Assembly: GCA_003151335.1 (NCBI GenBank)
Contig: PLXE01000075.1
Span: 1 to 57,255, forward strand
Direction of reading: 5' to 3'
From: Acidobacteriaceae bacterium
GTDB lineage: Bacteria > Acidobacteriota > Terriglobia > Terriglobales > Acidobacteriaceae
Length of the DNA: 57,255 nt
The translations under genes were made by a program, and so were the position numbers. The notes beneath the pieces were generated by a model that made no database searches, was not told the DNA's origin, and saw nothing but the letters and a program-made list of their open reading frames with translations. This document shows positions 4,901 to 57,255 of this stretch, in pieces (position 1 is the stretch's first letter; each line of letters begins with the position of its first letter).

Positions 4901-4945
4901 GTTGCTAACCTGAATTATTCATAAATATTGATGTCATCCTGTCTG

Positions 4946-5288
4946 TAACGACGTTGGCGTTGTCAAGCGAGACGAGTCCCCAAGGCGGCATTGCCCATCC
5001 ACAGCTCGTGCCCCATCTCCGCCAGCATCTGCTCGAACCATTGCGTCTTGCCGCAAGCTTCCAGGCCCACCAGCACCAGTCCCGCTAAAGCCGCGTAAAA
5101 CGCGCGCGCCTCCTCGGGATGCTGCAGCCGCCGATGGCTGATCTCTCTGCTCGTACGGTCAAAAATCGCAACTGGCTGAAAGCCGACATGAAAATCACAG
5201 CCTATAATCCACATAATTGGCTCCTTCCACGGCTCTCTGGTCGTGTTGCAACACCAGAATACCCGGCCGGACGGAGCCAACGTCGTTA
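4946..5288. repeat. 13-bp perfect inverted repeat bracketing an IS110 relic
   Basis: The sequence TAACGACGTTGGC at 4946-4958 is repeated exactly in inverted orientation at 5276-5288. The two arms enclose the truncated transposase start at 4963-5214. The 343-bp unit could be an internally deleted, MITE-like derivative, although IS110 elements usually lack long terminal inverted repeats. Confidence 0.6.
4963..5214 (-). pseudogene. IS110-family transposase, N-terminal relic
   Basis: The reading frame gives the start of an IS110 (DEDD-type) transposase: IIGCDFHVGFQPVAIFD, then RAFYAALAGLVLVGLEACGK and WFEQMLAEMGHELWMGNA. These match the conserved beginning of the RuvC-like domain, including its first Asp in GCDFH. 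Homology stops at about 75 residues, whereas intact enzymes have 300-400 residues, so it is a remnant. The ATG at 5214 keeps a strong ribosome-binding site (GGAAGGAG), which suggests the truncation was recent. No second half of the transposase is visible nearby. Confidence 0.75.
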
Positions 5289-5301
5289 TGAAATCAAGCG
5301 A

Positions 5302-5355
5302 CTAGTCTGGTCGCCGTGCGACCGGACTAGGAGTCGAAGGATCCCTATTTCCAGT
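5302..5355. repeat. REP-type palindrome
   Basis: A 12-bp stem with one G-T type mismatch (5302-5313 with 5319-5330, loop of five) is followed by GAGTCGAAGGATCCCTAT. That tail is shared with the other repeats at about 21.5, 23.3, 41.6 and 49.8 kb. Confidence 0.6.
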
Positions 5356-5408
5356 CTGAAGTTGCGCGGCCGACATTCTCCTCATGTTGCTACCCGTTAA
5401 CCTCAACC

Positions 5409-7502
5409 CTACGGGTGCGCCATGCTGACCGTGACCGCATCGGCCGACTCGATCACGATCGAGTCAGGCTGTTGTGAAACCCAGTCCACGGGCATGGCCA
5501 GCAAGCGAAGCTGCGTGATCGCCGGGCGCGTTGCGGTGCGCCACTGCATCTCGTCGGCGCCGAAATAATGCGCTAGGTCCGGTTCGTTCCAGGGATAAAT
5601 CCAAACGTCCGACAACCCATTCGGCTCCACGACGAACGCTCTCACATCGTGACTGCCATCGGCGCGGGTGATCTCCAGTTGCAAGCGTTCCGGCTTGCGC
5701 AACTTCAACAGCGGCCCATAGTGAACCTTGACGCGTAACCGCAGGAAATCGCCGCCCTCGACGGGCCATGCGGGGTCGCCGAGATCCAGCAAAGAACTGC
5801 GGTCGTGAATCGCAAAGCCTTTCGCTGCCACCAGGAGCGGCCGCGCCTGCATGGAGATTCTGCTCGCGCGCGAATCGTCTCTCTGCAACCCGAAAACGCC
5901 GGGGATAATCTCTTCTTGCGAGCGATAGTGGCGCAACATCCAAAACCAGACATCGGGAGTGCGGGTAAAGTGACTCACCTCATCGATCGGAAAACTCAGA
6001 GGCCCGTCGGGAAAATAGAGGCCAACAGGAGCCGGCGCTTGTTCCATTCCCGCGATAGCAACCTGCGACAAGTACGGCCCGCTGGCCAGATTCGCCTGCA
6101 TCACGCCGCTGGCCACGTTGCGGCCCGACGCCATTCCCATTATGTATTGGTAGGGGAAAATCGCCACTGAATCCTTCGCATCGCTGTGCTGCTGCACATA
6201 GGCAGAAACCGTTTGCAACATACCGGTAAAGTCCGCCGGAAAACAGGCGCGATCGAATTCCCGGAAGCCCGGGGGACAAGACGTAAGAGGATTTTGCAAC
6301 TGCTCAAGGCGGAACCGAACCATCGATGGCCGGAACACGGCATTGGGCTGGGTGAACAGCACGGAACATACGACCATCGCTAACGCCGCACCGGCGGACA
6401 GGATGAACGAGTCGAAGGAAAACAAAATCGCGCTGGCGAAAAACACCATGGGAAAGATGGCGAAGACGATGTGCTGGTCATCAGACCGCACCAGCCCGCT
6501 TTGCATGGTAACCACGGCAAAGGCGAATGCGCTAAGCAGAAATCCGCTGCGAGCTGTGATCCCCTTGCCGGGCACTATGCGGCGCAGAAGAAAAACAACG
6601 CCCCCCGCAATTAAGGTGGCCAATAACCGGATCCTGCCATCCTCCGTCATCGGCGCTGGTTCCTTCCAGCGGTGCAAGTTCACGATTGCCACTGAGCTTT
6701 TCCAGTAGCGGAAGTCGAGCGGCTTGGTCATGGCGGCGTTGATGGCGAAAACCAGCGCAACCGAAAGCGCAGCAAACACCAGCAGAGCGACGGCGTACCG
6801 CCGAAAGGCCTGCGACGCCCACCGGCCTTCCCATGCCACTCCGGCGAGTGCCAGCAATAAGGCTGCGATCGCATAGATACCGGCGTCGGCCGAATATAGA
6901 AACGCGGCCGCACACAGCACCGCCGAGGTGCAACCTAGCACCACCGGCTTAAACTGCCCCTCGCGCACTCCATACCAGCCCTTCAGGAACAACACGAAGA
7001 GAAAGATGTTGAGAATCGTCCGTCCGTCCCAGGGCAGCCAAAAGACAGGGAGCAGTATTAGCAGAAGAAATCGCTTCCACGCTGGTTGTTCCCTCAGCAG
7101 CATCCGCAGCGTGAAGTACAGCAGCACCAGACTGAACCACAGCAGCGATGTGTCCTTCCAGGTGGCATAGACAGTACCCATAGAAAGACCCATCCAGCGT
7201 GCGGGCGCAGTCCAAATCCATTGAAATAGCGGACCATACTGGAAGATGATGCCGGAGCCGAACCAGATCCCGCGCGAGGCTGCGAAGGCGCTATCCAGGA
7301 CCCAGTTGTAGTCGAAGGCCATGGGACGCGTAACCACGATGAGCGTGCGCGGAGAAAGCCATGGCAAAGGGATGGCGATAAGCGCCAACAGCACAATCGC
7401 CAGCGCGTCCCAGTGTCGCCGGAAGCGCAGCATCGAAATCTTCGAGACCGGCGCTTGAGTTTGCGAGCCTGGCTTGCTCACCGCAACGTCGAGCTTCTCC
7501 AT
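5409..7502 (-). CDS. Large polytopic membrane protein, possible lipid-linked sugar transferase
   Basis: The 697-residue product has a cytoplasmic N-terminus of about 30 residues and then roughly ten to twelve hydrophobic helices up to about residue 385 (for example ALAIVLLALIAIPLPWL and FLLSAFAFAVVTM). A soluble domain of about 300 residues follows, probably outside the membrane. The shape (many helices plus a C-terminal extracytoplasmic domain) resembles GT-C glycosyltransferases, but I do not see a diagnostic motif, so the function is open. It is divergent from the glycosyltransferase gene at 7652, with 149 bp between the start codons. The neighbourhood (glycosyltransferase, ugd, MBOAT set) makes a role in surface polysaccharide assembly plausible. 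Confidence 0.7.
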   Translation of the reverse strand: MEKLDVAVSKPGSQTQAPVSKISMLRFRRHWDALAIVLLALIAIPLPWLSPRTLIVVTRPMAFDYNWVLDSAFAASRGIWFGSGIIFQYGPLFQWIWTAPARWMGLSMGTVYATWKDTSLLWFSLVLLYFTLRMLLREQPAWKRFLLLILLPVFWLPWDGRTILNIFLFVLFLKGWYGVREGQFKPVVLGCTSAVLCAAAFLYSADAGIYAIAALLLALAGVAWEGRWASQAFRRYAVALLVFAALSVALVFAINAAMTKPLDFRYWKSSVAIVNLHRWKEPAPMTEDGRIRLLATLIAGGVVFLLRRIVPGKGITARSGFLLSAFAFAVVTMQSGLVRSDDQHIVFAIFPMVFFASAILFSFDSFILSAGAALAMVVCSVLFTQPNAVFRPSMVRFRLEQLQNPLTSCPPGFREFDRACFPADFTGMLQTVSAYVQQHSDAKDSVAIFPYQYIMGMASGRNVASGVMQANLASGPYLSQVAIAGMEQAPAPVGLYFPDGPLSFPIDEVSHFTRTPDVWFWMLRHYRSQEEIIPGVFGLQRDDSRASRISMQARPLLVAAKGFAIHDRSSLLDLGDPAWPVEGGDFLRLRVKVHYGPLLKLRKPERLQLEITRADGSHDVRAFVVEPNGLSDVWIYPWNEPDLAHYFGADEMQWRTATRPAITQLRLLAMPVDWVSQQPDSIVIESADAVTVSMAHP

Positions 7503-7651
7503 AGAGGTATGCCATTCTCCCCACAGCCGTCACCGTTGCAGCTCTCGGCCCTCAGTGAAAAACTGGCTGCGCCATTGTATATTGTACGGAGACACGCTCA
7601 GGGGCAGCACCAGTCGTTCGGGAAGCGAAGACACATACCCAGGTTTGCGCC

Positions 7652-8665
7652 ATGCACATCGTCATCGTCATGCCCGTTTATGAGGATTGGGACGCGGCCT
7701 TAAAACTCTGCCGCAATATCGACGTGGTCCTTCGCGAGCAGAGTTCGCTGCGCGCCAGCGTGCTCCTCATTGACGACGGCAGTGCGCTCACGAGCTATCC
7801 GCGCGAACTTCCTTTTCGACTTGAAGCTATCGATCATGTCTCGGTATTGACCCTGCGCCGCAACCTGGGTCATCAAAGGGCGCTGGCGGTCGGGTTTGCT
7901 TACCTCCAGCAACACAGGAAGGGCGACGCGGTCGTGGTGATGGATGCCGATGGAGAGGACCGGCCCGAGGACATTCCCCGACTCCTGGAGGCCATGGGAA
8001 ATGCGGGGCATCCGACCGCGGTCTTTGCCGAACGCGGCCGCCGGCTTGAGGGTTTGACCTTCCGGCTTATGTACCGTTGCTACTCGCTGCTGCATAGATT
8101 GTTCACCGGCCGCGACATTCGCTTCGGGAACTTTAGCGTTCTGCCCTGGTCATATCTCGACAGCCTGGTCGTGTGTCCCGAGCTGTGGAACCATTACTCT
8201 GCCACATTTCTGAAGTCGCGCCTTCCCTATACTCGGGTGCGTTGCGATCGTGGACGGCGCCTGGCGGGCGAGTCGCGCATGAATTTTGTAAGCCTGGTCA
8301 TCCATGGAATGTCGGCCTTGTTTGCGAATCAGGAGGTGGTAGGCACGCGTCTGTTGCTGATGGCCGTGTTTACTACCTTGATGTTGCTGCTGCTGTTGGG
8401 CATTGGGGTGGGAATCAAGCTTTTCACCCATGCATGGATTCCCGCTTGGGCCGCGGTTGCCGTAGGTATTCTATTCATCCTCGGCGGTCAGTTTCTACTT
8501 GGCTGTTTCATGCTGGTTTTTTCCGCCATGATGACTCGCAGTCACCTTGGCTTTCTCCCGATACGCGACTATTCCTTCTTTGTGGCCCACGAAACCGAAC
8601 TTCACTCCATGGCTAGCACTCCTCAGCTAACCTCCATTCCCGCAACCGCCGGGCGTTCCAGTTAG
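7652..8665 (+). CDS. Family-2 glycosyltransferase, DPM1/GtrB/ArnC type
   Basis: The 337-residue product starts with a GT-A fold (IVIVMPVYEDWDAAL). It carries the early Asp pair (LLIDDGS, about residue 41), the NLGHQRALAVGF helix and the metal/nucleotide-binding DAD (residues 98-100) in VMDADGEDRPED. Two C-terminal membrane helices (about 233-257 and 263-291) are typical of enzymes that move a sugar from a nucleotide donor to polyprenyl phosphate at the inner face of the membrane. The ugd gene 215 bp downstream makes UDP-glucuronate, so a uronate-derived donor is a reasonable guess. The substrate cannot be read from the sequence. Confidence 0.82.
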   Translation: MHIVIVMPVYEDWDAALKLCRNIDVVLREQSSLRASVLLIDDGSALTSYPRELPFRLEAIDHVSVLTLRRNLGHQRALAVGFAYLQQHRKGDAVVVMDADGEDRPEDIPRLLEAMGNAGHPTAVFAERGRRLEGLTFRLMYRCYSLLHRLFTGRDIRFGNFSVLPWSYLDSLVVCPELWNHYSATFLKSRLPYTRVRCDRGRRLAGESRMNFVSLVIHGMSALFANQEVVGTRLLLMAVFTTLMLLLLLGIGVGIKLFTHAWIPAWAAVAVGILFILGGQFLLGCFMLVFSAMMTRSHLGFLPIRDYSFFVAHETELHSMASTPQLTSIPATAGRSS

Positions 8666-8880
8666 GATCCCCGTCCAGTAGTTCTGCCCTTTCTTGACCG
8701 CATACGGCGCGGCAATGAACGCTCGCGATGACCGTCAAGGAATGGTCAGTCGCGCCCATTCCCCGACCTCCTAAAGCCAGCCCGCATGTACAATAAGTAA
8801 CTTATTATCCTGCATCAGCAGCACCGCCAAACAAGGTCGCCGGAAGACGGCTATTAGGCTGTTGTCGTCTGGAGTTATTC

Positions 8881-10332
8881 ATGCGAATTGCAGTAATCGG
8901 GTCCGGGCACGTGGGGTTGGTCTCGGGAGCCTGCTTTGCCGAGTTAGGCCACGATGTCATCCTGGTCGACAACGATCCCGTGAAGTATGCAGCCCTGCAA
9001 CAAGGCGAATGCCCAATTCACGAGAAGCACGTGCCAGAGTTGTTCCAGCGTCACCGTGGCACCAGGCTCCTGTTTTCCGATGCGCTCGCTGATTCGGTCA
9101 GCAAAGCTGAGGCGATCTTCATCGCAGTCGGCACGCCGCCCGACATCAATGGCGAGGCCGATCTTTCCTACGTTGAATCGGTCGCGCGCGAAATTGCGTC
9201 TGTCATCAAGGAGTACAAAATCATCGTTGGTAAGAGCACCGTGCCTGTGTACACCAGTGAATGGGTGCGCAAGGTCATGCTGCTCAACGGCGCTTCCGCC
9301 AGCCTGTTCGATGTTGCCTCCAATCCTGAGTTCTTGCGCGAAGGCACGGCGGTCACCGATTTCCTCTATCCTGATCGCATCGTAATTGGCACCGACAACG
9401 ACGCCTGCGCGGAACGTCTGCGCCTTATTTATCAGCCGTTGCTCGACGGAAGCTACTATCGGCGGGTTGATTCCCTGTTCCCGCACAAACTGGTCAAGTC
9501 CCCGCCTCCCTTCCTTGTGACCACCGCCAAGAGCGCTGAATTGATTAAGTACGCCTCCAATGCCTTCCTGGCGATGAAGATCAGTTTCATCAACGCGGTC
9601 GCTGCTATTTGTGAATCCGTGGGTGCCGATGTGGACCAGGTGCGCGAAGGTATCGGTTCCGATTCGCGCATAGGGCGGCAGTTTCTAAGTCCCGGCATCG
9701 GCTACGGCGGCTCGTGTTTTCCCAAGGACCTGTCTGCCTATCGCGCCGTGGCTCGAGAATGTGGTTACGATTTTCGCCTGCTCGAGGAAGTCATGCGCAT
9801 TAACAACGAGCAGCGTGAGCGTTTTCTGCGCAAAGTGCGGAGTGTGCTGTGGACCTTGAAAGGCAAACGGCTCGCCGTATTAGGGCTGGCATTCAAAGGC
9901 GGCACTGACGATGTCAGAGAATCCCCAGCCGTCTCGGTGGTGCGTTCGCTCCTGGACGAGGGCTGCAAGATTCAAGCCTACGATCCGGCCGCAGCCCAGA
10001 ATGCGCGTGAGTTGCTGGGCACGCAAAACATCCAATACGCAACCTCAGCCATGGAAGCTGCCAGGGACGCCGACGCGTTGCTGGTGCTCACCGACTGGGA
10101 AGAATTTCGCACAATTGATCTCGATCGCTTGCGTGAATTGTTGAGATACCCGATCGTGATTGACGGACGCAATCTGTTCAGCCCGGCCACGATGGCAGAG
10201 CATGGATTCACTTACACCAGCGTAGGTCGTGGCGATGTGTACCACCAGGCCGGCAGCGCTCAAAAGTCGCCGGCTGCCGCCAAGAAGTCCGTGGACGCAC
10301 AGCCAGACGCGGATGCCGTTAAGACGCCTTAG
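8881..10332 (+). CDS. ugd: UDP-glucose 6-dehydrogenase
   Basis: This NAD-dependent enzyme oxidises UDP-glucose twice to UDP-glucuronate. The 483-residue product has the N-terminal Rossmann motif VIGSGHVGLVSG and the VGTPPDINGEADLSYV and NPEFLREGTAV segments. Its catalytic Cys279 sits in GYGGSCFPKDL, and a C-terminal UDP-binding domain has GLAFKGGTDDVRESPA. The last 30 residues are an Ala/Lys/Pro-rich tail beyond the usual family length. The ATG at 8881 is preceded by GGAG at a good distance. With pgm at 15.3 kb it could complete a glucose-6-P to glucose-1-P to UDP-glucose to UDP-glucuronate route, the UTP-glucose pyrophosphorylase being elsewhere. Confidence 0.95.
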   Translation: MRIAVIGSGHVGLVSGACFAELGHDVILVDNDPVKYAALQQGECPIHEKHVPELFQRHRGTRLLFSDALADSVSKAEAIFIAVGTPPDINGEADLSYVESVAREIASVIKEYKIIVGKSTVPVYTSEWVRKVMLLNGASASLFDVASNPEFLREGTAVTDFLYPDRIVIGTDNDACAERLRLIYQPLLDGSYYRRVDSLFPHKLVKSPPPFLVTTAKSAELIKYASNAFLAMKISFINAVAAICESVGADVDQVREGIGSDSRIGRQFLSPGIGYGGSCFPKDLSAYRAVARECGYDFRLLEEVMRINNEQRERFLRKVRSVLWTLKGKRLAVLGLAFKGGTDDVRESPAVSVVRSLLDEGCKIQAYDPAAAQNARELLGTQNIQYATSAMEAARDADALLVLTDWEEFRTIDLDRLRELLRYPIVIDGRNLFSPATMAEHGFTYTSVGRGDVYHQAGSAQKSPAAAKKSVDAQPDADAVKTP

Positions 10333-44024: not shown

Positions 44025-44702
44025 TCACTTGCCGGAGAACAAGTATCCCGCCAGCATCTTCTTCGTCTCGCCGATGACGACATCGCGCTCCTCGCGGGTG
44101 GGCTGCTCGTAGGCGTAAGCAATGAGGCGCTCGCCGCCCTCGCTGGCCACGTTCAGCGTGAGCTCGAGCTCGGGCGTAAAGCGGAAGCGCAGGCGCTCGA
44201 CCATGAAGGTGGTGAGCATGGCGGGAAGACCGGTGCGGGGCGAGGCCTGGCGTGCCTTGGTGGCGGCGCTGATGTGGCGCCCGAAAGAGATGGTGCGGAA
44301 GTCGGGATGGGCGTCGAGATACAGGACGTAGGCGTCGATCATGCGATCGAGCACCACGCTGGGATCTCCGCCGAAGGCGGACAGATGCTGGCGTTGCTGC
44401 AACAGCGGCCGCATGACGTCCTTATCCACCATAGAGCGAAATTGCAGGACGTGGCCGACGGCAATGGCGTCGATGATGGACTGCCCGTCAGGGAAGAAGC
44501 GGTAAACCGCGCCAACCGAGAGCCCGGGTTCGGACGCAATGCGCCTGGTGGTAACGTCCTCGAGCGGCATTTGGGTGAGCAGCGAGCTGGCCGCGTCCAG
44601 AATGCGTGCCACGGTGCGAAGGCTGCGGTCCTGGGCGGGCTGGCGGCGATTCGCCGCGATAGCCGCACCGACCAGGGAATCAATGGAAGGTTGGTTAGAC
44701 AT
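44025..44702 (-). CDS. TetR-family regulator (paralogue of 49936-50637)
   Basis: The 225-residue protein has the helix-turn-helix RILDAASSLLTQMPLEDVTT then RIASEPGLSVGAVYRFFPDG, and a C-terminal domain of the TetR_C type with LYLDAHPDFRTISFGRHIS and GERLIAYAYEQPTREERD. The gene at 49936 on the other strand shares these segments almost word for word, so the two are paralogues that flank the STAND/hpnH segment in inverted orientation. The ATG is at 44702. Confidence 0.87.
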   Translation of the reverse strand: MSNQPSIDSLVGAAIAANRRQPAQDRSLRTVARILDAASSLLTQMPLEDVTTRRIASEPGLSVGAVYRFFPDGQSIIDAIAVGHVLQFRSMVDKDVMRPLLQQRQHLSAFGGDPSVVLDRMIDAYVLYLDAHPDFRTISFGRHISAATKARQASPRTGLPAMLTTFMVERLRFRFTPELELTLNVASEGGERLIAYAYEQPTREERDVVIGETKKMLAGYLFSGK

Positions 44703-47680: not shown

Positions 47681-48100
47681 TTACTCTAGCTTCTCCGGCT
47701 CCAGCGCGATGTGCTTTTCGCCGGCGGCCTTCTTCTCCCAATACTTGCGGACCCAGGCTTCCCAGCTTTTGCCGGCGGCGGTGTCGCGTCCGCTGAACGC
47801 CAGGGCGGCGATATCGGAATAAGCGATGGAAATCTTCTGCGAGGAATTCTGCGTAATGAGGCGCACGATTGAGGCGTCGAGCGTCGGGCCGTTGCGGCGG
47901 TCGAAAAGGTAGCCTTCCACGCGCGATCCGTCCTTGCGCGTGATAGTCACGTCGCCGCGATAGTCGAAGGCTTTCTCCAGCGCGTCGCGCAACTCGGCTT
48001 CAGTCGCCAGCTCGGGAATCCAGCCTTCCATCTTTTCGTGGTCGCGTCCGTCAACGACTTCCAATGCGTCAACGGTTAAATTGCGCTGCGGCTCGCTCAT
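47681..48100 (-). CDS. Hypothetical protein upstream-linked to hopanoid gene region
   Basis: The 139-residue soluble protein starts MSEPQRNLTVDALEVVDG. An N-terminal helix-rich part (ELATEAELRDALEKAFDYRG) is followed by a small Sm-like or beta-barrel stretch (DVTITRKDGSRVEGYLFDRR and SSQKISIAYSDIAALAFSGR) and a charged C-terminal helix. The beta part resembles proteins that bind or modify a surface through an Sm/LSm-like fold, but I cannot name the family. The start at ATG 48100 is preferred over one 16 codons upstream. It is on the same strand as hpnH, 201 bp downstream of it, with the inverted repeat 48141-48293 between them. Confidence 0.65.
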   Translation of the reverse strand: MSEPQRNLTVDALEVVDGRDHEKMEGWIPELATEAELRDALEKAFDYRGDVTITRKDGSRVEGYLFDRRNGPTLDASIVRLITQNSSQKISIAYSDIAALAFSGRDTAAGKSWEAWVRKYWEKKAAGEKHIALEPEKLE

Positions 48101-48140
48101 GATTTCGCTTGTCGCCTTTCGCTCTTCGCCAAAGTCTCTA

Positions 48141-48293
48141 TTCACCACGGAGGCACGGAGAACACGGAGGAGTTCCTATGTTTTAAACCCGCGTTGAGAT
48201 TGCTCTAACAAACCAAAAAAGGATGCCTGTAAACAGGAAACTACCCGGAAATTCGTTTGGTTTCCTCCGTGCTCTCCGTGTCTTCGTGGTGAA
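48141..48293. repeat. CCACGGAG-type inverted repeat
   Basis: The 31-bp arms (48141-48171 and 48263-48293) match at 28 positions when inverted; the left arm begins TTCACCACGGAGGCACGGAG. It lies between hpnH and the hypothetical gene, so it may act on the hpnH transcript end. A shorter relative is at 24266-24343. Confidence 0.7.
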
Positions 48294-48301
48294 AATATTG
48301 C

Positions 48302-49408
48302 CTAGGAATTCACATTCCCGATCTGCACCAGCGGATCGTAAGCGCGCACCGGATGGGTCGTCTCCTTCAGCATGGCCAGCGCTTCGTCGTCTTTGTATTT
48401 GCTGGAGAACGTGGCGCGCACCGTCCCCAGAAATCCACGCAGCGAGCCGAAGGTATCGTGCACCGCGGAAGCTTCGTATCCGCTATGCACCATGCAATTG
48501 GCGCATTGCGGATTGCCCGACTCGGTGCCGTACTTGTGCCATTCGGTCTCGCGCATCAACTCTTCGAAGGTGTCGGCGTAGCCGTCCTGCAGCAGGTAAC
48601 ACGGCTTCTGCCAGCCGAACATGTTGAAGGTCGGCATGCCCCACGGCGTACACGGATAGTCGCGCTTGCCCATCAGGAATTCCAGAAACAGAGGCGACTG
48701 GTTGAACACCCACTTGGCTTTGCGGTTCGACAACATGGCGCGGAACAGCCGCCGCGTGCGGGCGCGTCCCAGGAAGTGTTTCTGGTCGGGAGCTTTGTCG
48801 TACGAGTACCCGGGCGAGAGCATCATGCCCTCGACCCCGAGGTCCATCATCTCGTCGAAGAAGTCGCGAACGCTGTTGGGATCGGCGCCGTCGAAGAGCG
48901 TGGTGTTCGTGGTAACGCGGAAGCCGCGCTGCAAGGCGGCCCTCATGCCATCGAGGGCGATGTCGAATCCGCCTTCGCGGCAGACCGAAAAGTCGTGGTG
49001 CTCGCGCTCGCCGTCCACGTGCACCGAGAACGTCAGATACTTGCTGGGCTTGAACAGGTCAATCTTCTCTTTGAGCAGCAAGGCGTTGGTGCACAGGTAA
49101 ATGTACTTCTTGCGCGCGACCAGGCCGTCCACAATCTCGGCGATCTGCGGATGCATCAGCGGCTCGCCGCCGGGGATCGACACCATCGGCGCACCGCATT
49201 CGTCCACCGCGCGGAAACATTCCTCGGGCGAAAGGTTGTGCTTGAGCACGTGCGCGGGATACTGGATCTTGCCGCAGCCGGCGCAAGCCAGGTTGCAACG
49301 GAACAGCGGCTCCAGCATCAGCACCAGCGGATAGCGCTTGCGGCCTTTGATCTTCTGTTTCAGGACGTACGTGGCGACCGTCCACATCTGCGAAACCGGA
49401 ACACCCAT
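48302..49408 (-). CDS. hpnH: Hopanoid biosynthesis radical SAM protein HpnH (adenosylhopane synthase)
   Basis: This 368-residue radical S-adenosylmethionine enzyme adds adenosine to diploptene, the first step to extended hopanoids. The [4Fe-4S] motif CNLACAGC is CxxxCxxC (Cys38, Cys42, Cys45), followed by the SAM-binding [10 protein letters not shown]. Cys-containing [17 protein letters not shown] and [15 protein letters not shown] near the end match the HpnH family. It ends at 48302. The ATG at 49408 and its leader (GAGG ten bases upstream) lie in a tandem duplication, so an identical start region is repeated 114 bp upstream. No other hopanoid gene is in the window. Confidence 0.93.
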
Positions 49409-49643
49409 GCGGTAAAAACCTCGTTAGAGCTTAAGAGCTGTCAGCTGTCAGCTATCAGCCGTCAGCTATCAATTCGTTCTTCGCGCGTTGCTCTTCGCTG
49501 TCTGCGAAACCGGAACACCCATGCGGTAAAAACCTCGTTAGAGCTTAAGAGCTGTCAGCTGTCAGCTGTCAGCTGTCAGCTGTCAGCTGTCAGCTATCGG
49601 CCGTCAGCTATCAATATCGTTCTTCGCGCGTTGCTCTTCGCTG
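49387..49643. repeat. Tandem duplication of the hpnH leader with expanded heptamers
   Basis: Unit 1 (49387-49500, 114 bp) and unit 2 (49501-49643, 143 bp) both run from TCTGCGAAACCGGAACACCC to TTGCTCTTCGCTG. They differ mainly in the number of AGCTGTC heptamers: two in unit 1, six in unit 2. Further copies of TCGCGCGTTGCTCTTCGCTG continue to about 49690. Confidence 0.88.
49469..49522 (-). other. Possible upstream ORF from the duplicated hpnH start
   Basis: The second copy of the hpnH start codon (ATG 49522, with the same GAGG site) reads MGVPVSQTAKSNARRTN and then stops at 49469. The first seven residues equal the HpnH N-terminus. If the promoter is upstream, ribosomes may engage this short frame before the true gene. 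Confidence 0.45.
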
Positions 49644-49935
49644 TTCGCTTTTCGCGCGTTGCTCTTCGCTGTTCGCGCGTTGCTTTTCGGCTTCGGACCG
49701 AGCACAATTTCAACTGTCATCCGGGCTGGCCCATTCCGTGTCATCCCGAACGCAGGTGGCTGAGTCTGTTTGTCGTCCTGCGCGACGAGGTCGCGGTGGC
49801 GACCGAGGCGTCGAAGGACCCCTATCCTGCCTACCTATCGGCGCATAACAAGAACGCGAATTCTGTTTCGTTTTTACAGGATTTGTGGCATTATGTCAAG
49901 GAGCGAAACCGTAGCCTAGCTGTTGCACGAACAAG

Positions 49936-50637
49936 ATGCCCTTTAGAAATCAACTCGATGCACCTCTAGTTGAAAGCCAAGTTTCGACCGCCGCTCGGCG
50001 TCGGCGCCACCCAGTCCAATACCGCAGTGTACGAACCGTGCAGCGGGTGCTGGACGCCGCCAGTTCCCTGCTGGAGCAGATGCCGCTGGAAGATGTAACC
50101 ACCACCCGCATTGCCACGGAGGCGGGGCTGTCGATCGGCGCGCTCTACCGATTTTTCCCCGACAAGCAGACCATCATTGATGCCATCGCGGTGCGCCACG
50201 TCGTTGAGTTTCGCGCTTCGCTGGATGCCACAGTATTTCAACCCTTGAGGCGCGAGCTCGTCAATCTGAAGACCTTCGATCCGGCCACTGTGCTGGACAG
50301 GATGGTTGACGAGTACACCCTCTACCTCGACGCCCATCCCGACTTCCGCACCATCTCCTTCGGACGCTATATTAGCGCGCCCACCAAACTACGTGAGGCG
50401 TCGCCCACCGCCGGGGTCCCCGCCATGCTGGCCAGCTTCATGGTCGTGCGCCTGGGCCTTCCTTATACCGACGAGCTCGACCTGATGTTGCGCGTGGTCA
50501 GCGAGGCGGGCGAGCGGCTCATCGCCTATGCCTACGAGCAGCCGACTCGCGAAGATCGCGGCCGCGTGATCTCGGAGATGAAACGCATGTTGTCGAGCTA
50601 CCTGTTCCCGCCTGGAACGACAGCAAGCAGAATTTAG
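49936..50637 (+). CDS. TetR-family regulator (paralogue of 44025-44702)
   Basis: The 233-residue protein has the helix-turn-helix RVLDAASSLLEQMPLEDVTT then RIATEAGLSIGALYRFFPDK and the C-terminal GERLIAYAYEQPTREDRG. It shares most of its length with the minus-strand TetR at 44025. The Ser/Arg-rich first 30 residues differ between the two. A 31-codon copy of its own C-terminal coding region follows directly (50646-50738), evidence of a former tandem gene copy. The ligand and target are unknown. Confidence 0.87.
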   Translation: MPFRNQLDAPLVESQVSTAARRRRHPVQYRSVRTVQRVLDAASSLLEQMPLEDVTTTRIATEAGLSIGALYRFFPDKQTIIDAIAVRHVVEFRASLDATVFQPLRRELVNLKTFDPATVLDRMVDEYTLYLDAHPDFRTISFGRYISAPTKLREASPTAGVPAMLASFMVVRLGLPYTDELDLMLRVVSEAGERLIAYAYEQPTREDRGRVISEMKRMLSSYLFPPGTTASRI

Positions 50638-50645
50638 CGCTGAAC

Positions 50646-50738
50646 TACGAGCAGCCGACTCGCGAAGATCGCGAGCGCGTGATCACGGAGATGAAACGCA
50701 TGTTGGCCAGTTATCTCTTCCCCGCCACAAGCTGCTAG
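50646..50738 (+). pseudogene. TetR 3'-end relic (tandem copy)
   Basis: The frame reads YEQPTREDRERVITEMKRML then ASYLFPATSC and stop. It aligns with the end of the intact gene (YEQPTREDRGRVISEMKRML, SSYLFPPG). Only the last 30 codons remain, 8 bp after the intact stop codon. Confidence 0.8.
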
Positions 50739-51657: not shown

Positions 51658-51718
51658 GTCCCTCAACCACCCCAACGAGCGCCCCGCCGTGGCGGGCTTG
51701 TTGGGGTGGTTGAGGGAC
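51658..51718. repeat. Long REP hairpin of the CCCCAACGAGCGC family
   Basis: A perfect 19-bp outer stem (51658-51676 with 51700-51718) encloses GAGCGCCCCGCC and GGCGGGCTT. It shares the CCCCAAC-GAGCGC core with the hairpin at 44815-44847 and is followed 120 bp later by a RAYT relic. Confidence 0.75.
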
Positions 51719-52008: not shown

Positions 52009-54216
52009 ATGATGCCTCTCCGGGGGTTGGTGATGGGGAAAGTTAAGATCGAACTTGAAAACTGCTACGGAATCAGAAAGTTACAGTACGATTTCAATTT
52101 TTTACAAAAACGCGTCTATGCCATATATGCTCCGAATGGGGCCATGAAAACATCCTTGGCTCAAACATTCAAGGATATGGCCGATGGGGTTGACTCTAGA
52201 GATCGAATATTTCCCTCGCGTGTGAATGTCAGAAAGATTACCGATGAGAATGGCCACGCCTTACCGAAGGAAAGCGTACTCGTTCTTCCTCCTTATGACG
52301 AATTCTTCGGTCACACAGAGAAAACGTCGACCCTCCTAGTGAACAACAAATTGCGAAAGGAGTTTGAGAAGTTAAATGCAGACCTAGAACACTCCAAGGA
52401 AGTGTTTCTTGATGCGATGAAGACCCAGTCCCACTCCAGGAAGAAGGGGCTGGATAAGGAAATCGCCTCGGCCATTATGTACATCGACACTGAGGAAGCC
52501 TTTTATCAGGCACTTGACCGCGTAAAGAACGAAGTGGCAGAGCAAAAGGATGCCCCATTTTCCCAGATCGAGTACGATGCCATCTTTGACGAGAAGGTGT
52601 TGGCTGCCTTGGGAGCGAAGGATGTCGCAACGGCAATTAACGCCTATATCACAAAATATAATGAACTACTAGCCGCCTCCACCTATTTCAAGGGAGGCAT
52701 ATTTGAGTATTACAACGCAAGCCAAATCGCCAAGGCCCTAGCCGACAATGGTTTCTTCGCTGCAAAACACACTATTACGCTTAACGCTAGCAAGAAACTA
52801 GAAATCAGTACCCCAAAGCAGCTAGAAGACGTCGTTGCCAAAGAATTGGACAACATCACAAATGATAAGGATTTCAAGAAAACGTTCGCCGAGCTTAAGA
52901 AACTACTTGAAAGAAATGTAACAGTTCGGGATTTCCATAAATATCTGTGCGACCACGAACTCCTGTTACCGCATTTGGCAAACATCGACTTTTTCAAAGT
53001 CCAAATCTGGAAGTCGTATTTTAAGGCGAATGAAGGTCTTTACAATGATTTACTCGACAAATATAGAAAGGTGAAAGAAAGAAGAAAGGAAATACAGGAT
53101 ACTGCTCTTAAAGAGCACACACTGTGGGAGGCCGCGATAGACCTGTTCAATGATCGCTTCTTTGTACCGTTTACGCTGGAAGCGACAAATAAGGCAGCCG
53201 TCGTCCTGGACAACGATGCCATACTTGATCTTGGTTACACGTTTAAAGATGAGAACGATTCGGCTCCGGTGGTGAAAGACACGTTGATGAAGTCCTTAAG
53301 CCAAGGCGAGAAAAAGGCTCTTTATATCCTGAATATCATCTTCGAGGTTGAGGTCAGGCGGCATGAAAAGACGGAGACCATCTTCATCGTTGATGACATA
53401 GCGGACTCCTTCGATTACCGCAATAAATATGCAATCGTTCAATACCTGAAGGACATCAGCGAAGACCCACTTTTCAAGCAAATTATAATGACCCATAACT
53501 TCGACTTCTTCCGTACTCTAGAGAGTAGGGGGGTTGCTAACTATGGGTGCTGCTTGATGGCGGCAAGAAATGACGACGGTACAATTGCGCTTGAAAAAGC
53601 CGCCGGAATAAGAAATGTATTCCTCAATGATTTGAAGGATAACTTTTTTGTAGACGAGATAAAGAAAGTGGCATGTATTCCATTTATCAGAAACATTCTG
53701 GAACTGACTAAAAATATCCAAGATCCTCAGTATATAAAGCTTACGTCTCTGTTGCATTGGAAATCTGATTCCGCAACGATTACAGAAGATGACCTAGACA
53801 CCATCTATAGGTCAGTGTTTGCTGCCGTTGGGCCTACCTCGTCCAATGGAACGAGACTAATGGTTGATATGATAGACGACCAGGCAAAGGCATGCTTAAC
53901 AGCACCAGCAGGCGTCAACTTCGAGAACAAGATTGTGTTGTCTATTGCCATACGCTTGGCATCTGAGAAATTTATGGTGGGAAAGATAAACGACAACAAC
54001 TTCGTGAATGCCATTACGGCGCATCAGACATCTGTTTTAGTGGACAGGTTCAAACAAGCGTTTCCCGCCGAGACTGCGAGCATCGAACTATTGGAAAGCG
54101 TGGCGCTCATGACCCCAGAAAATATCCATCTCAATTCGTTCATGTACGAACCGATTGTGGATATGTCGGATGAGCATCTGAGAAAGCTATACAAGAACGT
54201 GCTGAATTTGCAATAA
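52009..54216 (+). CDS. AAA/ABC-type ATPase of the PrrC/phage-infection-protein-like group, AT-rich
   Basis: 735 residues with an ABC-class ATPase split by a long coiled-coil insertion. The Walker A region is YAPNGAMKTSLAQTF (residues 40-54), lacking the two usual Gly of GxxxxGK but keeping Lys47-Thr48. The signature is LSQGEKKALYIL (430-441), Walker B TIFIVDDIADSFDYR (Asp462, Asp463) and the H-loop IIMTHNFDFF (His496). The C-terminal 200 residues show no nuclease or toxin motif I can name. Such stand-alone ATPases occur among anti-phage proteins (for example PrrC/RloC-like). The sequence is much AT-richer than its surroundings, so transfer is likely. The ATG at 52009 or 52012 follows GGAGGG. 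The octapeptide-repeat gene follows by 66 bp. Confidence 0.82.
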   Translation: MMPLRGLVMGKVKIELENCYGIRKLQYDFNFLQKRVYAIYAPNGAMKTSLAQTFKDMADGVDSRDRIFPSRVNVRKITDENGHALPKESVLVLPPYDEFFGHTEKTSTLLVNNKLRKEFEKLNADLEHSKEVFLDAMKTQSHSRKKGLDKEIASAIMYIDTEEAFYQALDRVKNEVAEQKDAPFSQIEYDAIFDEKVLAALGAKDVATAINAYITKYNELLAASTYFKGGIFEYYNASQIAKALADNGFFAAKHTITLNASKKLEISTPKQLEDVVAKELDNITNDKDFKKTFAELKKLLERNVTVRDFHKYLCDHELLLPHLANIDFFKVQIWKSYFKANEGLYNDLLDKYRKVKERRKEIQDTALKEHTLWEAAIDLFNDRFFVPFTLEATNKAAVVLDNDAILDLGYTFKDENDSAPVVKDTLMKSLSQGEKKALYILNIIFEVEVRRHEKTETIFIVDDIADSFDYRNKYAIVQYLKDISEDPLFKQIIMTHNFDFFRTLESRGVANYGCCLMAARNDDGTIALEKAAGIRNVFLNDLKDNFFVDEIKKVACIPFIRNILELTKNIQDPQYIKLTSLLHWKSDSATITEDDLDTIYRSVFAAVGPTSSNGTRLMVDMIDDQAKACLTAPAGVNFENKIVLSIAIRLASEKFMVGKINDNNFVNAITAHQTSVLVDRFKQAFPAETASIELLESVALMTPENIHLNSFMYEPIVDMSDEHLRKLYKNVLNLQ

Positions 54217-54282
54217 AATGGTGACCAATGAAACATTCCGCCGAGTGCCAGAAATTCAGAAAGCCCGGTGCTCCAGGCAATT

Positions 54283-54714
54283 ATGAGAGACACCAAAACT
54301 GAACCTGGATGGCCTCGGGATAGCTACACTGGACCGTGTGGCGGTTTGTATACGGGTCCGGGCGGGGGACTTTACACTGGCCCAGGGGGCGGGGCATACA
54401 CCGGTCCTGGTGGTGGTCTCTACACCGGCCCCGGTGGGGGATGGTATACCGGTCCGGGTGGAGGATTATATACAGGTCCTGGCGGTGGACTTTACACCGG
54501 CCCCGGTGGGGGATTGTATACCGGTCCGGGTGGAGCTCTCTACACGGGACCTAGTGGTGGCCTCTATTCAGGACCAGGTGGCGGCTTATACACGGGACGT
54601 TCGCAAAATCCTTATCGCAATAATTGGCCGCCCAGGGCGGTGTTTCTTCAGTGCCTGCTAGAACGCGAACTTGAAAGGCAGTATCAGATTCTGAAAGAGG
54701 CTTGGAGAATGTGA
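54283..54714 (+). CDS. YTGPGGGL octapeptide-repeat protein with conserved-looking C-terminus
   Basis: 143 residues. After a short polar start (MRDTKTEPGWPRDS), eleven octapeptides of the form YTGPGGGL follow (variants C, A, W, S at single positions), then a degenerate twelfth (YTGRSQNP). A non-repeat tail follows: YRNNWPPRAVFLQCLLEREL plus ERQYQILKEAWRM, which is helical and amphipathic. The repeat should form a regular beta or polyproline-like rod, with Tyr every eight residues. I have an impression that small proteins with such repeats and a YRxNWPP tail recur in other bacteria, but cannot check it. The start is ATG 54283 (AGG five bases upstream); a GTG at 54268 is possible. It is probably co-transcribed with the ATPase. 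Confidence 0.78.
   Translation: MRDTKTEPGWPRDSYTGPCGGLYTGPGGGLYTGPGGGAYTGPGGGLYTGPGGGWYTGPGGGLYTGPGGGLYTGPGGGLYTGPGGALYTGPSGGLYSGPGGGLYTGRSQNPYRNNWPPRAVFLQCLLERELERQYQILKEAWRM
54325..54612 (+). repeat. 24-bp tandem repeat encoding YTGPGGGL
   Basis: Twelve in-frame 24-bp units begin at 54325. Codons vary at third positions (TACACTGGCCC, TATACCGGTCC, TACACCGGCCC), so the peptide is conserved while the DNA has drifted, which points to selection on the protein. Confidence 0.9.
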
Positions 54715-54802
54715 TTCTCCCTTTTCGGCACGAACCCTTGGATCACTGGGCGGGTGCCCACCCTAACACCTGACATTCCCAAACCTCGGGTGCCCTAAAA
54801 AC

Positions 54803-54893
54803 AGTTGTCAGTAGCCAGTAGCCAGTTGTCAGTAAAGGCAACCGCAGATCCTTCGACTCGGTCGCCGCGGCGACCTCGCTGGGGATACAAACA
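54803..54893. repeat. CAGTAGC/CAGTTGT heptamers plus REP arm
   Basis: Five heptamer units (CAGTTGT, CAGTAGC twice, CAGTTGT, CAGTAAA) at 54803-54837 are followed by a REP arm (GCAGATCCTTCGACTCGGTC, 54844 onward, GCCGCGGCGAC core). No gene is seen between 54715 and 55175. Confidence 0.7.
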
Positions 54894-55175
54894 GCAATGG
54901 GTGACATTTTGCGTCGGCGACCCGGAAGAGGGTAAGGGCTGGCCAGGCTGCGCGCAGAAGCGGTCATGAGGCGGGTCATCGCTTTCAGGAAGGGGGCTGG
55001 CACCTTGCCAAATTTCTCGTCAGAGCGTCGCTCCTGCAAAGCGCAAACACGATTTCAACGTGTTCTTCCTTCGTGAGTCAGTCAAGTGTTCCGGGATGAG
55101 TTGGTTCAACCCCAAGCGTTCATCTGACTCTCGCACACTGGTGCGCCGCAGGTGGCGAGAACAGAGAGCGAAAAA

Positions 55176-55436
55176 CTAGATGGTCGCGTCGTCCTTTCCG
55201 CGGAAGACAATCACCGCCACCGCGATAACAACGACCATGAGGATGATCCCTACTCCCTGTACTCCTAATGATGAGAGGACGGATGAAACGAACTTCGAGC
55301 CAGGGAAATGGAGAACGCCCACGGTATTTTGGACCATCTCGGCCCCACTGTCATAGCCGAGGAGCGTCACTAAGCCCGCCGCTAACACCACCAAGGTAAT
55401 CAGAATCTTTCGTTTCACAATGAAAGTGTAATCCAA
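55176..55436 (-). CDS. Small two-helix membrane protein
   Basis: 86 residues with two membrane helices: ILITLVVLAAGLVTLLGY (about residues 11-28) and GVGIILMVVVIAVAVIVF (about 61-78), joined by a loop of about 30 residues. The end GKDDATI is charged. The start is TTG at 55436 (AGG five bases upstream) or GTG at 55418. No family is recognised. It lies alone in a repeat-rich segment, so it may be a small stand-alone gene or a chance frame; the membrane pattern favours a gene. Confidence 0.55.
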   Translation of the reverse strand: MDYTFIVKRKILITLVVLAAGLVTLLGYDSGAEMVQNTVGVLHFPGSKFVSSVLSSLGVQGVGIILMVVVIAVAVIVFRGKDDATI

Positions 55437-55502
55437 GTAAGCCTGTTGGTGCTACCCGCATCTTGGCAAGGTTACACTAAGGTGGTGGAGAATTGGGGCA
55501 GA

Positions 55503-55775
55503 CGTCAGTAGTCAGTAGTCAGTAGCCAGTAGGCAGTAGTCAGTTATCAGTGAAAAGCAGGTCCCTCGACTGCGCTCGCTGCGCTCACTCCGCTCGGGAT
55601 GACAAGAACAGTTGTCAGTTGCCAGTTGCTGGTTGTCAGGGAGGGCAACCGCAGATCCTTCGACTGCGGCGGCGCAACATCGGCGCCGCCTCCGCTCAGG
55701 ATGACAAACAGCAGTTGTCAGTAGTCAGTCAAAAAGCAGGTCCCTCGCCGGCTAAAGCCGGCTCGTGATGACAAG
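55503..55775. repeat. Cluster of heptamer repeats and REP arms
   Basis: Heptamers of CAGTAGT/CAGTTGC type at 55505-55552, 55609-55637 and 55711-55730 alternate with REP arms at 55558-55604, 55652-55704 and 55736-55773 (TCCTTCGACTGCG, core hairpins such as CCGGCTAAAGCCGG, then GGATGACA). No gene is visible from 55437 to 55980. Confidence 0.75.
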
Positions 55776-55980
55776 AACAAGGAGATCAGCGGCGCACCTA
55801 AAGGTGCGCCCCCTCAAGGCAGCGGCTCAACCCTACTCTTTCAGCAGGCTGTAAAGTCCTGGCAGCGTGCGGCGCAGCATGACGCTCAGCAGCGCATTTG
55901 CTAAACTGAAAGCGCTGCCCCTGTCTTGTCGCCCGTCGAAGACCGAGGCAGCGGACCTACAATTCGGTTGCCGTTGATGC

Positions 55981-56070
55981 GGAGAGGTGCGTGAGTGGTT
56001 GAAACGAGCCGCCTCGAAAGCGGCCATACCTTGACGGGTATCGGGGGTTCGAATCCCTCCCTCTCCGCCA
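55981..56070 (+). tRNA. tRNA-Ser (anticodon CGA)
   Basis: A 90-nt cloverleaf with acceptor stem GGAGAGG (55981-55987) and CCTCTCC (56060-56066), then encoded GCCA. The anticodon stem GCCGC/GCGGC encloses loop CTCGAAA with anticodon CGA. A long variable arm (TACC-TTGAC-GGGTA region) and the T arm GGGTTCGAATCCC are as expected for serine tRNA. Confidence 0.93.
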
Positions 56071-56082
56071 TGATTTCAGCAG
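56047..56082 (+). repeat. tRNA 3'-end direct repeat, copy 1
   Basis: The 36 bp from GTTCGAATCCCTCCC through CCGCCATGATTTCAGCAG, comprising the T arm, acceptor 3' strand and 12 bp beyond, recur at 56160-56195 with one mismatch. Confidence 0.85.
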
Positions 56083-56159: not shown

Positions 56160-56195
56160 GTTCGAATCCCTCCCGCTCCGCCATGATTTCAGCAG
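56160..56195 (+). repeat. tRNA 3'-end direct repeat, copy 2 (possible att-like site)
   Basis: This copy differs from the tRNA only by T to G in the acceptor strand. The 77 bp between the copies hold a REP arm (GAGGTCCCTCGCTGCGCTCG) and a GCGGGC/GCCCGC stem. The pattern resembles attachment sites left by tRNA-targeting integrases. Confidence 0.7.
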
Positions 56196-56346: not shown

Positions 56347-57255
56347 CTAAGGCGAGATGCTAACTGCAACCCCCGGGCTGTCAGGATACATGCGGTTGTA
56401 CAGGTAATACCCGTCATCAGAGTATGCGACGTAAACATCATCGGTTTGGTACCAGGTGTCTCCCCAGTTTTCCGGATACGGATCAATCATACTGAACCAA
56501 TGGCCTCCGTACTGGAAGCGCGGATACCCGCCCTCCACACTGAAGGGGAGGCTGGAGACGCGGAAATAGTGATCCGGACCATAGTAGCTGCCGTAAGAAT
56601 CGTCAGGAACGCGATAGCCGTTGTAGCCGCCGCGCTGCTGCCAATTGCGGTGCTCAGATTGCCAGTTCTGAGCGCGATACCGCTGCCAGTCACCTTGCTG
56701 TTGCGGAATGGGCCCTAGCTGTGCCTGCTCATTGTTCTGGCTTTCAAACGGGATGCTAATTGCAATCCCCGGCCGGTTAGCATACCGGCGGTTGTACAGG
56801 TAATACCCATCACCGGAGTATGCGACGTAGACATCGTCGGTCTGGTACCAGTTCCTACCCCAGTATTCCGGATACGGATCAATCATACTGAACCAATAGC
56901 CACCGTACTGGAAGCGCGGATACCCGCCCACCACCATGAAGGGTTCGTTGTAGACGCGGAACGAATGACCCTGGCCATAGTAGCTGCCGTAATAGTTGTC
57001 AGGAATGCGGTAGCCGTTGTAGCCGCCGCGCTGCTGCCAATTGCGGTGTTCAGACTGCCAGTTCTGAGCGCGATGCTGCTGCCAGGTTGTCTGCTGTTGC
57101 TGCTGATAGGCATGCTGCTGTTGCTGCGTGGGCCGTAGCTGAGCAGGTCTAATGGCCTGCTGCTGAGCAGCCTGCTGCCGGCTCTGCCTCTGCTGCTGCT
57201 GCTGCGCCTGCTGCTTGTTCTGGCTCTGCTGCTGCTGGGCATGCTGTTGTTGCTG
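56347..57255 (-). CDS. Gln-rich protein with duplicated Tyr/Trp-rich domain (5' end outside window)
   Basis: The frame is open from the window edge to a stop at 56347 (302 codons), so the N-terminus is missing. The first 58 codons are almost pure Gln with Ala, His and Arg. Two copies of a domain of about 105-120 residues follow; each has RAQNWQSEHRNWQQRGGYNGYR, split as RAQNWQSEHRNWQQ and RGGYNGYR, then GGYPRFQYGG, WFSMIDPYPE and WYQTDDVYVAYS. I take it to be an exported surface protein of acidobacterial type, but no signal peptide can be seen in the window. The function is not known. Confidence 0.75.
   Translation of the reverse strand, partial: QQQQHAQQQQSQNKQQAQQQQQRQSRQQAAQQQAIRPAQLRPTQQQQHAYQQQQQTTWQQHRAQNWQSEHRNWQQRGGYNGYRIPDNYYGSYYGQGHSFRVYNEPFMVVGGYPRFQYGGYWFSMIDPYPEYWGRNWYQTDDVYVAYSGDGYYLYNRRYANRPGIAISIPFESQNNEQAQLGPIPQQQGDWQRYRAQNWQSEHRNWQQRGGYNGYRVPDDSYGSYYGPDHYFRVSSLPFSVEGGYPRFQYGGHWFSMIDPYPENWGDTWYQTDDVYVAYSDDGYYLYNRMYPDSPGVAVSISP

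Follow-up and report, generated by a model that had tools for sequence, protein, structure and literature searches.

An ATPase gene and an octapeptide-repeat gene that lie next to each other in the window (the whole stretch of 57,255 nucleotides analyzed here) are most probably two independent pieces of foreign cargo, side by side at a variable, defense-bearing site, and not the parts of a functional module. According to this explanation, both genes would be separately mobile and would have landed between a TetR-type gene and a tRNA-Ser(CGA), the ATPase being a stand-alone protein of the PDC-S46 family and the repeat gene a complete one-gene unit. With the doubtful two-gene defense module dropped, two separate leads remain, the PDC-S46 ATPase and the repeat family.

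Composition and genomic site of the two genes

As described in the initial annotation, two adjacent ORFs are located on the plus strand, the ATPase at 52009 to 54216 and the repeat gene at 54283 to 54714, with a gap of 66 bp if the ATG at 54283, preferred over a GTG at 54268, is taken as the start of the second. Their AT-rich, transferred appearance was confirmed by comparison with the rest of the window: two 1-kb bins within the ATPase have a GC content of 43-45%, being 54-69% in the remaining bins, and the GC3 of both genes (ATPase 0.54, repeat gene 0.47) lies under that of 27 other long ORFs (0.72, s.d. 0.075). By composition, then, both genes look foreign.

The variable site is delimited on the left by a TetR-type regulator, named by eye and matched in L202, L203, and L204 (49936 to 50637, plus strand), and on the right by the tRNA-Ser(CGA) found in the window (55981 to 56070, plus strand), both genes lying between these edges. 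The site comparison involves mainly one relative, the same-genus genome G403, where the content of the site is different, with HsdM-, HsdS-, and HsdR-type (Type I restriction-modification) and PIN-type genes. A tRNA-linked island was also considered and rejected because the 3' end of the tRNA recurs as a 36-nt repeat on the downstream side, leaving the two genes unbracketed.

The octapeptide-repeat gene and its family

The repeat gene, as delimited by its ORF and the family alignment, encodes 143 amino acids on the plus strand, starting with an N-terminal cap, WPRDS (54310 to 54324), whose W10 is present in at least 90% of the family and whose R12 is invariant. Repeat analysis places twelve 24-bp units at 54325 to 54612; eleven are full, in agreement with the number of YTGPGGGL-type units first proposed (five of them exact), and the twelfth is degenerate (YTGRSQNP). 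The tail (54613 to 54711), defined by the family alignment and AlphaFold, begins with the expected YRNNWPPR and continues with two predicted helices where one had been described. Moreover, codon differences over the 55 pairs of the eleven units, pairs that are not independent, amount to 274 synonymous and 58 non-synonymous, with a pN/pS of 0.13 among the units. This synonymous excess and low ratio confirm protein-level selection on the array, bearing out the earlier claim that the repeat is maintained as protein. Units 5 and 8 differ by a single base, suggesting local duplication or conversion.

No match to the repeat family is found in Pfam, NCBIfam, PADLOC, or PHROGs. Its layout comprises a W-x-R-[ND] cap, the octapeptide array, and a two-helix, PP-containing tail, with the window protein presenting the cap, 12 units, and the PP-containing tail. 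A pattern search gave 131 repeat loci, the genome-scan part of this count being a lower bound. The family is present in many bacterial phyla and its array mostly retains 12 octapeptides even though the DNA has diverged. One array length is strongly preferred: 76 of the 91 measurable copies have 12 units, whereas seven differ by one and eight by 3 to 8 units. Also, unit 3 terminates in Ala in 66 of 69 copies. This preferred number disfavors an expandable silk-like rod; a three-unit solenoid turn, suggested by the 72-bp period that TRF reports in the array, was discarded since the arrays that depart from 12 show no preference for three.

The AlphaFold model of the repeat protein has a mean pLDDT of 53, with array blocks of 30-62 and no confident array fold, and a PDB fold search with this low-confidence model returned 0 matches. 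When the family profile was compared with the PDB, three matches were obtained: 9ygj_A, a chain of rhoptry neck protein 2, over 63 positions at E 6.4e-8, and two chains of dispase autolysis-inducing protein at E ~0.09. These probably reflect common composition. A Pfam scan of six tails alone gave a single weak match, FUBP_C, under its cut-off.

The repeat family occurs on mobile elements. In E. coli, relatives are present in 18 of 5,426 genomes, and the four inspected all adjoin a prophage integrase; in plasmids, a DNA search with an enterobacterial relative identified 22 of 72,556 records, including pJY33, of only 2,365 bp, whose one other annotated gene is rep. A search of 50,697 phage records with the same DNA query found nothing. 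Neither did a protein tblastn of the repeat against plasmids, and given the 22 records recovered there with DNA, the low-complexity filter probably masks the family. In the phylum sample, 3 of 396 genomes carry the repeat, one of them weakly (G374). In the E. coli and plasmid records inspected, the gene is labeled "hypothetical protein" or is unannotated. A family present on prophages and even on a very small plasmid poses both a structural and a functional question.

For the window protein and its relatives, we favor a reading in which the octapeptides between the N-terminal cap and the two-helix tail would constitute one discrete fold instead of an extendable rod, the protein acting as a single-protein accessory factor for mobile elements. 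A role in exclusion or interference between mobile elements is plausible, at somewhat worse than even chances. In its broadest and slightly more tentative form, the repeat gene might represent an accessory system of phages and plasmids that has not been described before, consists of a single gene, and extends across the bacteria; its product, with a capped or closed 12-octapeptide fold and cytoplasmic and secreted forms, would act in mobile-element conflict, perhaps as an exclusion factor or as a bait that neighboring effectors (M78-Fic or TIR proteins, for example) monitor. Mobility, short repeats, a single gene, and an end cap are also features of the Qnr/MfpA group of pentapeptide-repeat proteins. 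This likeness would be one of analogy only, since repeat length and residues differ from those of the octapeptide family and there is no sequence or structure match.

The genes beside the repeat genes are for the most part diverse, and the neighbor that recurs most strongly comes from one cluster of similar proteins. A Fic-motif gene is located directly upstream in 9 of 123 loci, overlapping in 8; the one examined with Pfam encodes an M78-Fic fusion and is preceded by an HTH gene. Moreover, PADLOC models of RmrA, from RosmerTA-type systems, match up to 11 of 135 neighbors. These associations, together with a plasmid on which rep is the sole companion, would be expected if the repeat gene served plasmid or phage maintenance, as an addiction or toxin-antitoxin accessory, rather than defense. 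However, no partner is family-wide, and a lone protein is not an addiction pair, so this alternative is unlikely. In the part of the RosmerTA description considered here (PMC10440598), RmrA proteins are ImmA-type protease antitoxins and a repeat protein is not mentioned. In the window, no Fic-motif or M78-Fic gene adjoins the repeat gene, and neither of the two genes matches an RmrA or M78 profile. A modified-peptide precursor was rejected as well: no modifying enzyme is prominent among the top 25 neighbor families listed, and pJY33 lists only rep besides the repeat gene.

A polymer-like role for the array, whether structural, at the surface, or extracellular, is less probable still. It would account for the secreted-looking subfamily (16 copies, with cysteines close to the array ends), for the 9ygj_A match if this were more than composition, and for the likeness of the units to GPGGX, a spider-silk motif. 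Nonetheless, in both the cytoplasmic-type and the secreted-looking subfamilies most measured copies have 12 units, unlike length-variable fibrous repeats. The surface location that had been suggested is unlikely for the window copy, whose N-terminus by eye is not signal-like, though secreted relatives exist.

The PDC-S46 ATPase and its Walker A loop

The ATPase ORF encodes 735 amino acids on the plus strand, the family most likely using the in-frame ATG at 52033, where relatives begin. The PADLOC profile of PDC-S46 (PDLC05023) aligns residues 9-734 with positions 1-718 of 719 (E 4.2e-258), and phrog_38705 is also a full-length profile match (E 1e-176). By sequence, then, this is an ordinary-looking, full-length member of a candidate anti-phage family, consistent with the anti-phage type first assigned to it; the "S" of the name presumably stands for single-gene. 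A literature search under the name PDC-S46 found no paper, and a PDB sequence search gave no match at E 0.01. The AlphaFold model (pLDDT 82) places SMC and Rad50 heads first in Foldseek, and this predicted head fold, together with the signature LSQGEK (53296 to 53313, plus strand, residues 430-435), the Walker B FIVDDIADS, and the H-loop THN, all reported earlier as intact, supports an ABC/SMC-type ATPase.

The Walker A motif, YAPNGAMKT (52126 to 52152, plus strand, residues 40-48), had been considered degenerate. Relative to GxxxxGK[ST], it does have G-to-A and G-to-M replacements, retaining the Lys and the Ser/Thr; if two missing glycines meant decay, the ATPase would be inactive. However, the alignment gives a family consensus Y-[AS]-x-N-G-x-M-K-[ST], N-G-x-M-K-[ST] being present in 18 of 19 relatives with F replacing M in the other (L016, split by tblastn, is excluded, and L167 and L168 are apparently the same sequence). 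With the variant shared by the family, the other motifs conserved, and the reading frame unbroken, decay was rejected and an inactive enzyme is very improbable; by alignment, the odd Walker A is a PDC-S46 signature. A conserved, non-canonical loop with Met (once Phe) at the last Gly raises a directly testable question, whether it can drive ATP-dependent signaling.

The C-terminal domain (53521 to 54213, plus strand, about residues 505-735) is mostly helical and contains R-N-x-x-E, the Glu being followed 18 residues later by a His. The anticodon nucleases PrrC and RloC have an R-x3-E ... H active site behind an ABC ATPase. The window ATPase may be likened to them by this pattern, although the spacing to the His differs from theirs and no family so named appears among its profile-library matches. 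Septu PtuA and the retron-associated SMC-like ATPases (Ec83, retron I-A, and Eco7) are Foldseek matches of the model (E 4e-5 to ~1e-3), ranking under the best SMC and Rad50 heads with TM-scores of 0.17-0.25 by query length; unlike in Septu and retrons, no PtuB or reverse transcriptase is seen beside the window ATPase.

For the stand-alone ATPase, a defense role is reasonably probable; the literature searched yielded no defense test of either family. We infer every biochemical step of the explanation, here as for the repeat protein: the SMC/Rad50-like heads, using the variant Walker A to bind ATP, would dimerize in response to a phage-derived cue, and the dimerized heads would activate the C-terminal helical domain as effector.

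Neighborhoods of the two genes

ATPase relatives were detected in 25 of 72,556 plasmid records at E 1e-20. The nine inspected have varied neighbors, sometimes Fic/VbhA, MazF, a restriction endonuclease, or transposases, none of them common to all by eye. A scan of viral contigs with the family alignment gave 10 further relatives, whereas the window sequence alone gave none. In the phylum sample, the ATPase is present in 2 of 396 genomes.

The pairing is absent from the sample examined. No repeat gene is found in the flanking DNA examined of 20 ATPase relatives (9 plasmid records and 10 viral-contig relatives among them), which covered at least 774 bp downstream for 19 and 3 bp for one; conversely, none of the 131 repeat loci has the ATPase nearby. 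This is the outcome, ATPase homologues never beside the repeat gene, that the initial annotation itself had named as contradicting its module. The shared strand, the 66-bp gap, and the absence of any plus-strand promoter-like match in the promoter scan of the region, the gap included, suggest that the two may be co-transcribed here. These features and the low GC3 of both genes favor a transferred module with the repeat protein serving the ATPase as sensor, rod, or partner, but such a module is rejected on these neighborhoods as extremely improbable. In G403, moreover, the ATPase persists as a remnant with no match to the repeat gene, and among the 396 phylum genomes both genes occur together only in G000.

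Pairing of the ATPase and the repeat gene

Both plus-strand frames described in the initial annotation are present. The ATPase frame spans 52009-54216 (+), the start shared with its relatives being ATG 52033, and the repeat gene (54283-54714, +) follows after a gap of 66 bp, with ATG 54283 as its best start and an array of eleven complete octapeptide units followed by a twelfth, degenerate one. The proposal that the array is kept as protein holds. The 55 pairs that can be formed from the eleven units, which are not independent, show 274 synonymous versus 58 non-synonymous codon differences (pN/pS 0.13), and despite this non-independence the synonymous excess argues for maintenance at the protein level. 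The ATPase has a GC content of 44% and a GC3 of 0.54; the GC3 of the repeat gene is 0.47. Across 27 other long ORFs of the window, GC3 averages 0.72 (s.d. 0.075; lowest value, 0.53), a rough mean because the choice of ORFs was mechanical and took in at least one (48353-49966) that overlaps a gene on the opposite strand (48302-49408).

The idea that the two genes travel as a module is not supported by the comparison with their relatives, since the pairing is absent from the 20 ATPase relatives and the 131 repeat loci examined. Outside the genus, none of these ATPase relatives (nine plasmid loci, locus L011, and ten viral loci) has a repeat gene beside it in the DNA examined, which extends at least 774 bp downstream in 19 of them and only 3 bp in one. 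The 131 repeat loci, a lower bound, comprise at least 117 stretches of the genome collection recovered with a two-unit DNA pattern and 14 more from viral contigs, and no ATPase match (E 1e-5) was obtained in any of them; at least 700 bp of upstream DNA was available in 113 of the 123 loci where the repeat ORF could be parsed. Thirteen further repeat loci, 12 of them with a detected array, likewise gave no ATPase match. In a sample of 396 genomes from one phylum, which we take to be Acidobacteriota, the ATPase is present in two, and a single genome (G000) carries both genes; the repeat match in another, G374, is weak (E 3.7e-12), and a motif search found no array there. Within the genus, PDC-S46 occurs in two of nine genomes and the repeat gene in one. 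Of the second ATPase only the C-terminal part is left, as a frame of 214 aa at a different place and without the repeat. The ATPase and the repeat gene are thus most likely two independent foreign cargo genes in a variable, defence-bearing site.

The ATPase and its probable insertion site

The ATPase is most likely an ordinary member of PDC-S46, a candidate anti-phage family of PADLOC. This profile covers the whole protein (E 4.2e-258), PHROG phrog_38705 also matches it (E 1e-176), and Pfam and NCBIfam give weak matches only, led by SMC_N and RecF. Relatives were detected in 25 of 72,556 plasmid records (E 1e-20); a scan of viral contigs with the window ATPase alone returned none, and a ten-row ATPase alignment used as query returned ten. 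No paper on PDC-S46 was found in the open-licence literature, an absence that is weak evidence. The Walker A motif, previously called degenerate, is better described as a conserved family variant because the same motif, Y-[AS]-x-N-G-x-M-K-[ST], recurs in 18 of 19 relatives, the most distant one having F for M; this count omits L016, a locus split by tblastn, and two of its loci, L167 and L168, look alike.

An AlphaFold model built from the window ATPase and nine viral-contig relatives has a mean pLDDT of 82. In a Foldseek search with this model, SMC and Rad50 heads rank first and Septu PtuA and retron ATPases come after them, all with low TM-scores. Of 19 relatives, 18 share R-N-x-x-E in the C-terminal domain, and a conserved His lies 18 residues after its Glu. 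This arrangement may resemble the active sites of PrrC and RloC, a likeness with no profile match behind it.

The two genes lie between a TetR-type gene (49936-50637) and tRNA-Ser(CGA) (55981-56070). The same-genus relative G403 has both edges on one contig: the left flank (matching window 47681-50727) and, 6.5 kb away, the tRNA-Ser (97% to window 55892-56070). The interval between them (4042-9767 of the fetched locus, L203) holds HsdM-, HsdS-, and HsdR-type (Type I restriction-modification) and PIN genes. The intervals of G000 and G403 therefore differ in content between common flanks, and if PDC-S46 is a defence family, both intervals have contained defence genes. Beyond the left flank of G396 come different genes, one of them transposase-like by eye, with no tRNA within the 9 kb fetched. 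In the DNA fetched, G397 matches the right flank only, save for one 67-bp piece, and G400 the left flank only.

Several repeats were also noted in the window. A 36-nt direct repeat (97%; 56047-56082 and 56160-56195, 113 bp apart) comprises the 3' end of tRNA-Ser(CGA) and the following bases, and resembles a scar left by the integration of an element. A 78-nt duplication (50532-50609 and 50645-50722; 90%) affects the 3' end of the TetR-type gene, and a second TetR-type ORF is found at 44028-44702. Two inverted 28-nt arms flank a 5-nt loop at 51658-51718, in the stretch from the TetR-type gene to the ATPase. Arrays of 7-nt units (AGCTGTC, GTCAGTA) with scattered related copies occupy 49436-49613 and 54802-55730, the latter intergenic. 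Finally, a 396-bp duplication (56356-57085) lies within a minus-strand gene for a Gln-rich protein, its nearest relative found being in G397 (96%).

Architecture of the repeat family

The repeat gene, the more interesting of the two, most likely belongs, as an orphan, to a large family without a name. Among the 80 matches listed, carriers belong to Pseudomonadota, Bacillota, Bacteroidota, Planctomycetota, Chloroflexi, Myxococcus, Paceibacterota, and others, phylum names that in part we assume from general taxonomy. Searches of the open-licence literature for YTGPGGG, GPGGGLYTG, YTGPGG, and GPGGGLY found no paper, again weak evidence, and "tandem octapeptide repeats" gave only titles on prion and other subjects.

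In its common form, the protein starts with M-W-[PVI]-R-[ND]-x, continues with the array and P-Y-x-S-N-x-P-P, and ends in two predicted helices. Among the 91 of 123 parsed copies with both array ends measurable, 76 have 12 units, six have 11, one has 13, and eight have 4 to 9. Ala ends the third unit in 66 of 69 full-length copies, defined as those with at least 10 well-formed units among the first eleven. A second subfamily, whose cysteine pattern picks out 16 copies, has a signal-peptide-like start in most members, cysteines near the array ends, and a W-N-R-P tail in 14; the distance from array start to tail motif is 99 residues in 12 of the 16. The preferred unit number common to both subfamilies argues, at the level of sequence, for one discrete fold. 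AlphaFold gives the array blocks a pLDDT of 30-62, the tail alone being confident. In the secreted-looking subfamily (L021, L040, L138, and others), the cysteines occur solely near both array ends, a placement that would be compatible with the two ends of the chain coming together. The tail nearest to that of the window copy, among 99 tails, comes from a Paceibacterota bin (23 of 31 residues identical).

Mobile carriage and neighbors of the repeat gene

With a copy from Silvania as query, the repeat gene was found in 18 of 5,426 Escherichia coli genomes, in 22 of 72,556 plasmid records by DNA similarity (eight of the 22 examined), and in none of 50,697 phage records. All four E. coli copies examined are beside an integrase and near the CI repressor of a prophage judged from annotation to be P2-type. 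An AAA ATPase and DUF4276 pair lies between CI and the integrase in three of these prophages (L152, L154, and L162); the last, E. coli NZ_JBRERL010000005.1, is labelled a plasmid, yet chromosomal rcdA to deoR adjoin the prophage. On one viral contig (L150), a phage portal gene adjoins the repeat gene. The stretch between the replication and portal genes of P2-like phages is described as a defence hotspot in PMC9122126.

On the 2,365-bp Weissella plasmid pJY33 (L155), the only other annotated gene is for replication. The frame of the repeat gene is intact from 208 to 609 and is preceded by the ribosome-binding-site-like AAGGAGGGG; the distributed annotation starts late, at 343. The plasmid is reportedly the subject of Park and others 2015.

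Of 168 genes that flank the repeat gene and encode 110 aa or more, 135 were scanned. Among the matches listed, Pfam gives Peptidase_M78 in 10, Fic in nine, phage integrase in seven, and TIR_2 in two, and PADLOC models of RmrA, the ImmA-type protease antitoxin of RosmerTA, match up to 11 of the 135; enrichment among these neighbors is an impression. In nine loci, a same-strand gene for a Fic-motif protein immediately precedes the repeat gene, with which it overlaps in eight and from which it is 2 bp away in one. In L028, the sole one of the nine checked with Pfam, this protein has M78 and Fic domains and an HTH gene precedes it; L028 and the eight further loci possibly represent a three-gene RosmerTA-like operon. 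The nine proteins are alike in length and start, proteins of this kind are among those of a 14-locus BLAST cluster, and the nine loci count as few events. Two other upstream neighbors (L116 794-1489 and L092 6423-7085) begin, by eye, like proteasome-type Ntn hydrolases, the one in L116 having no Pfam match at E 1e-5. In Pseudomonas oleovorans, a ThsB-type TIR protein (L022 5906-6601) is encoded 80 bp upstream of the repeat gene.
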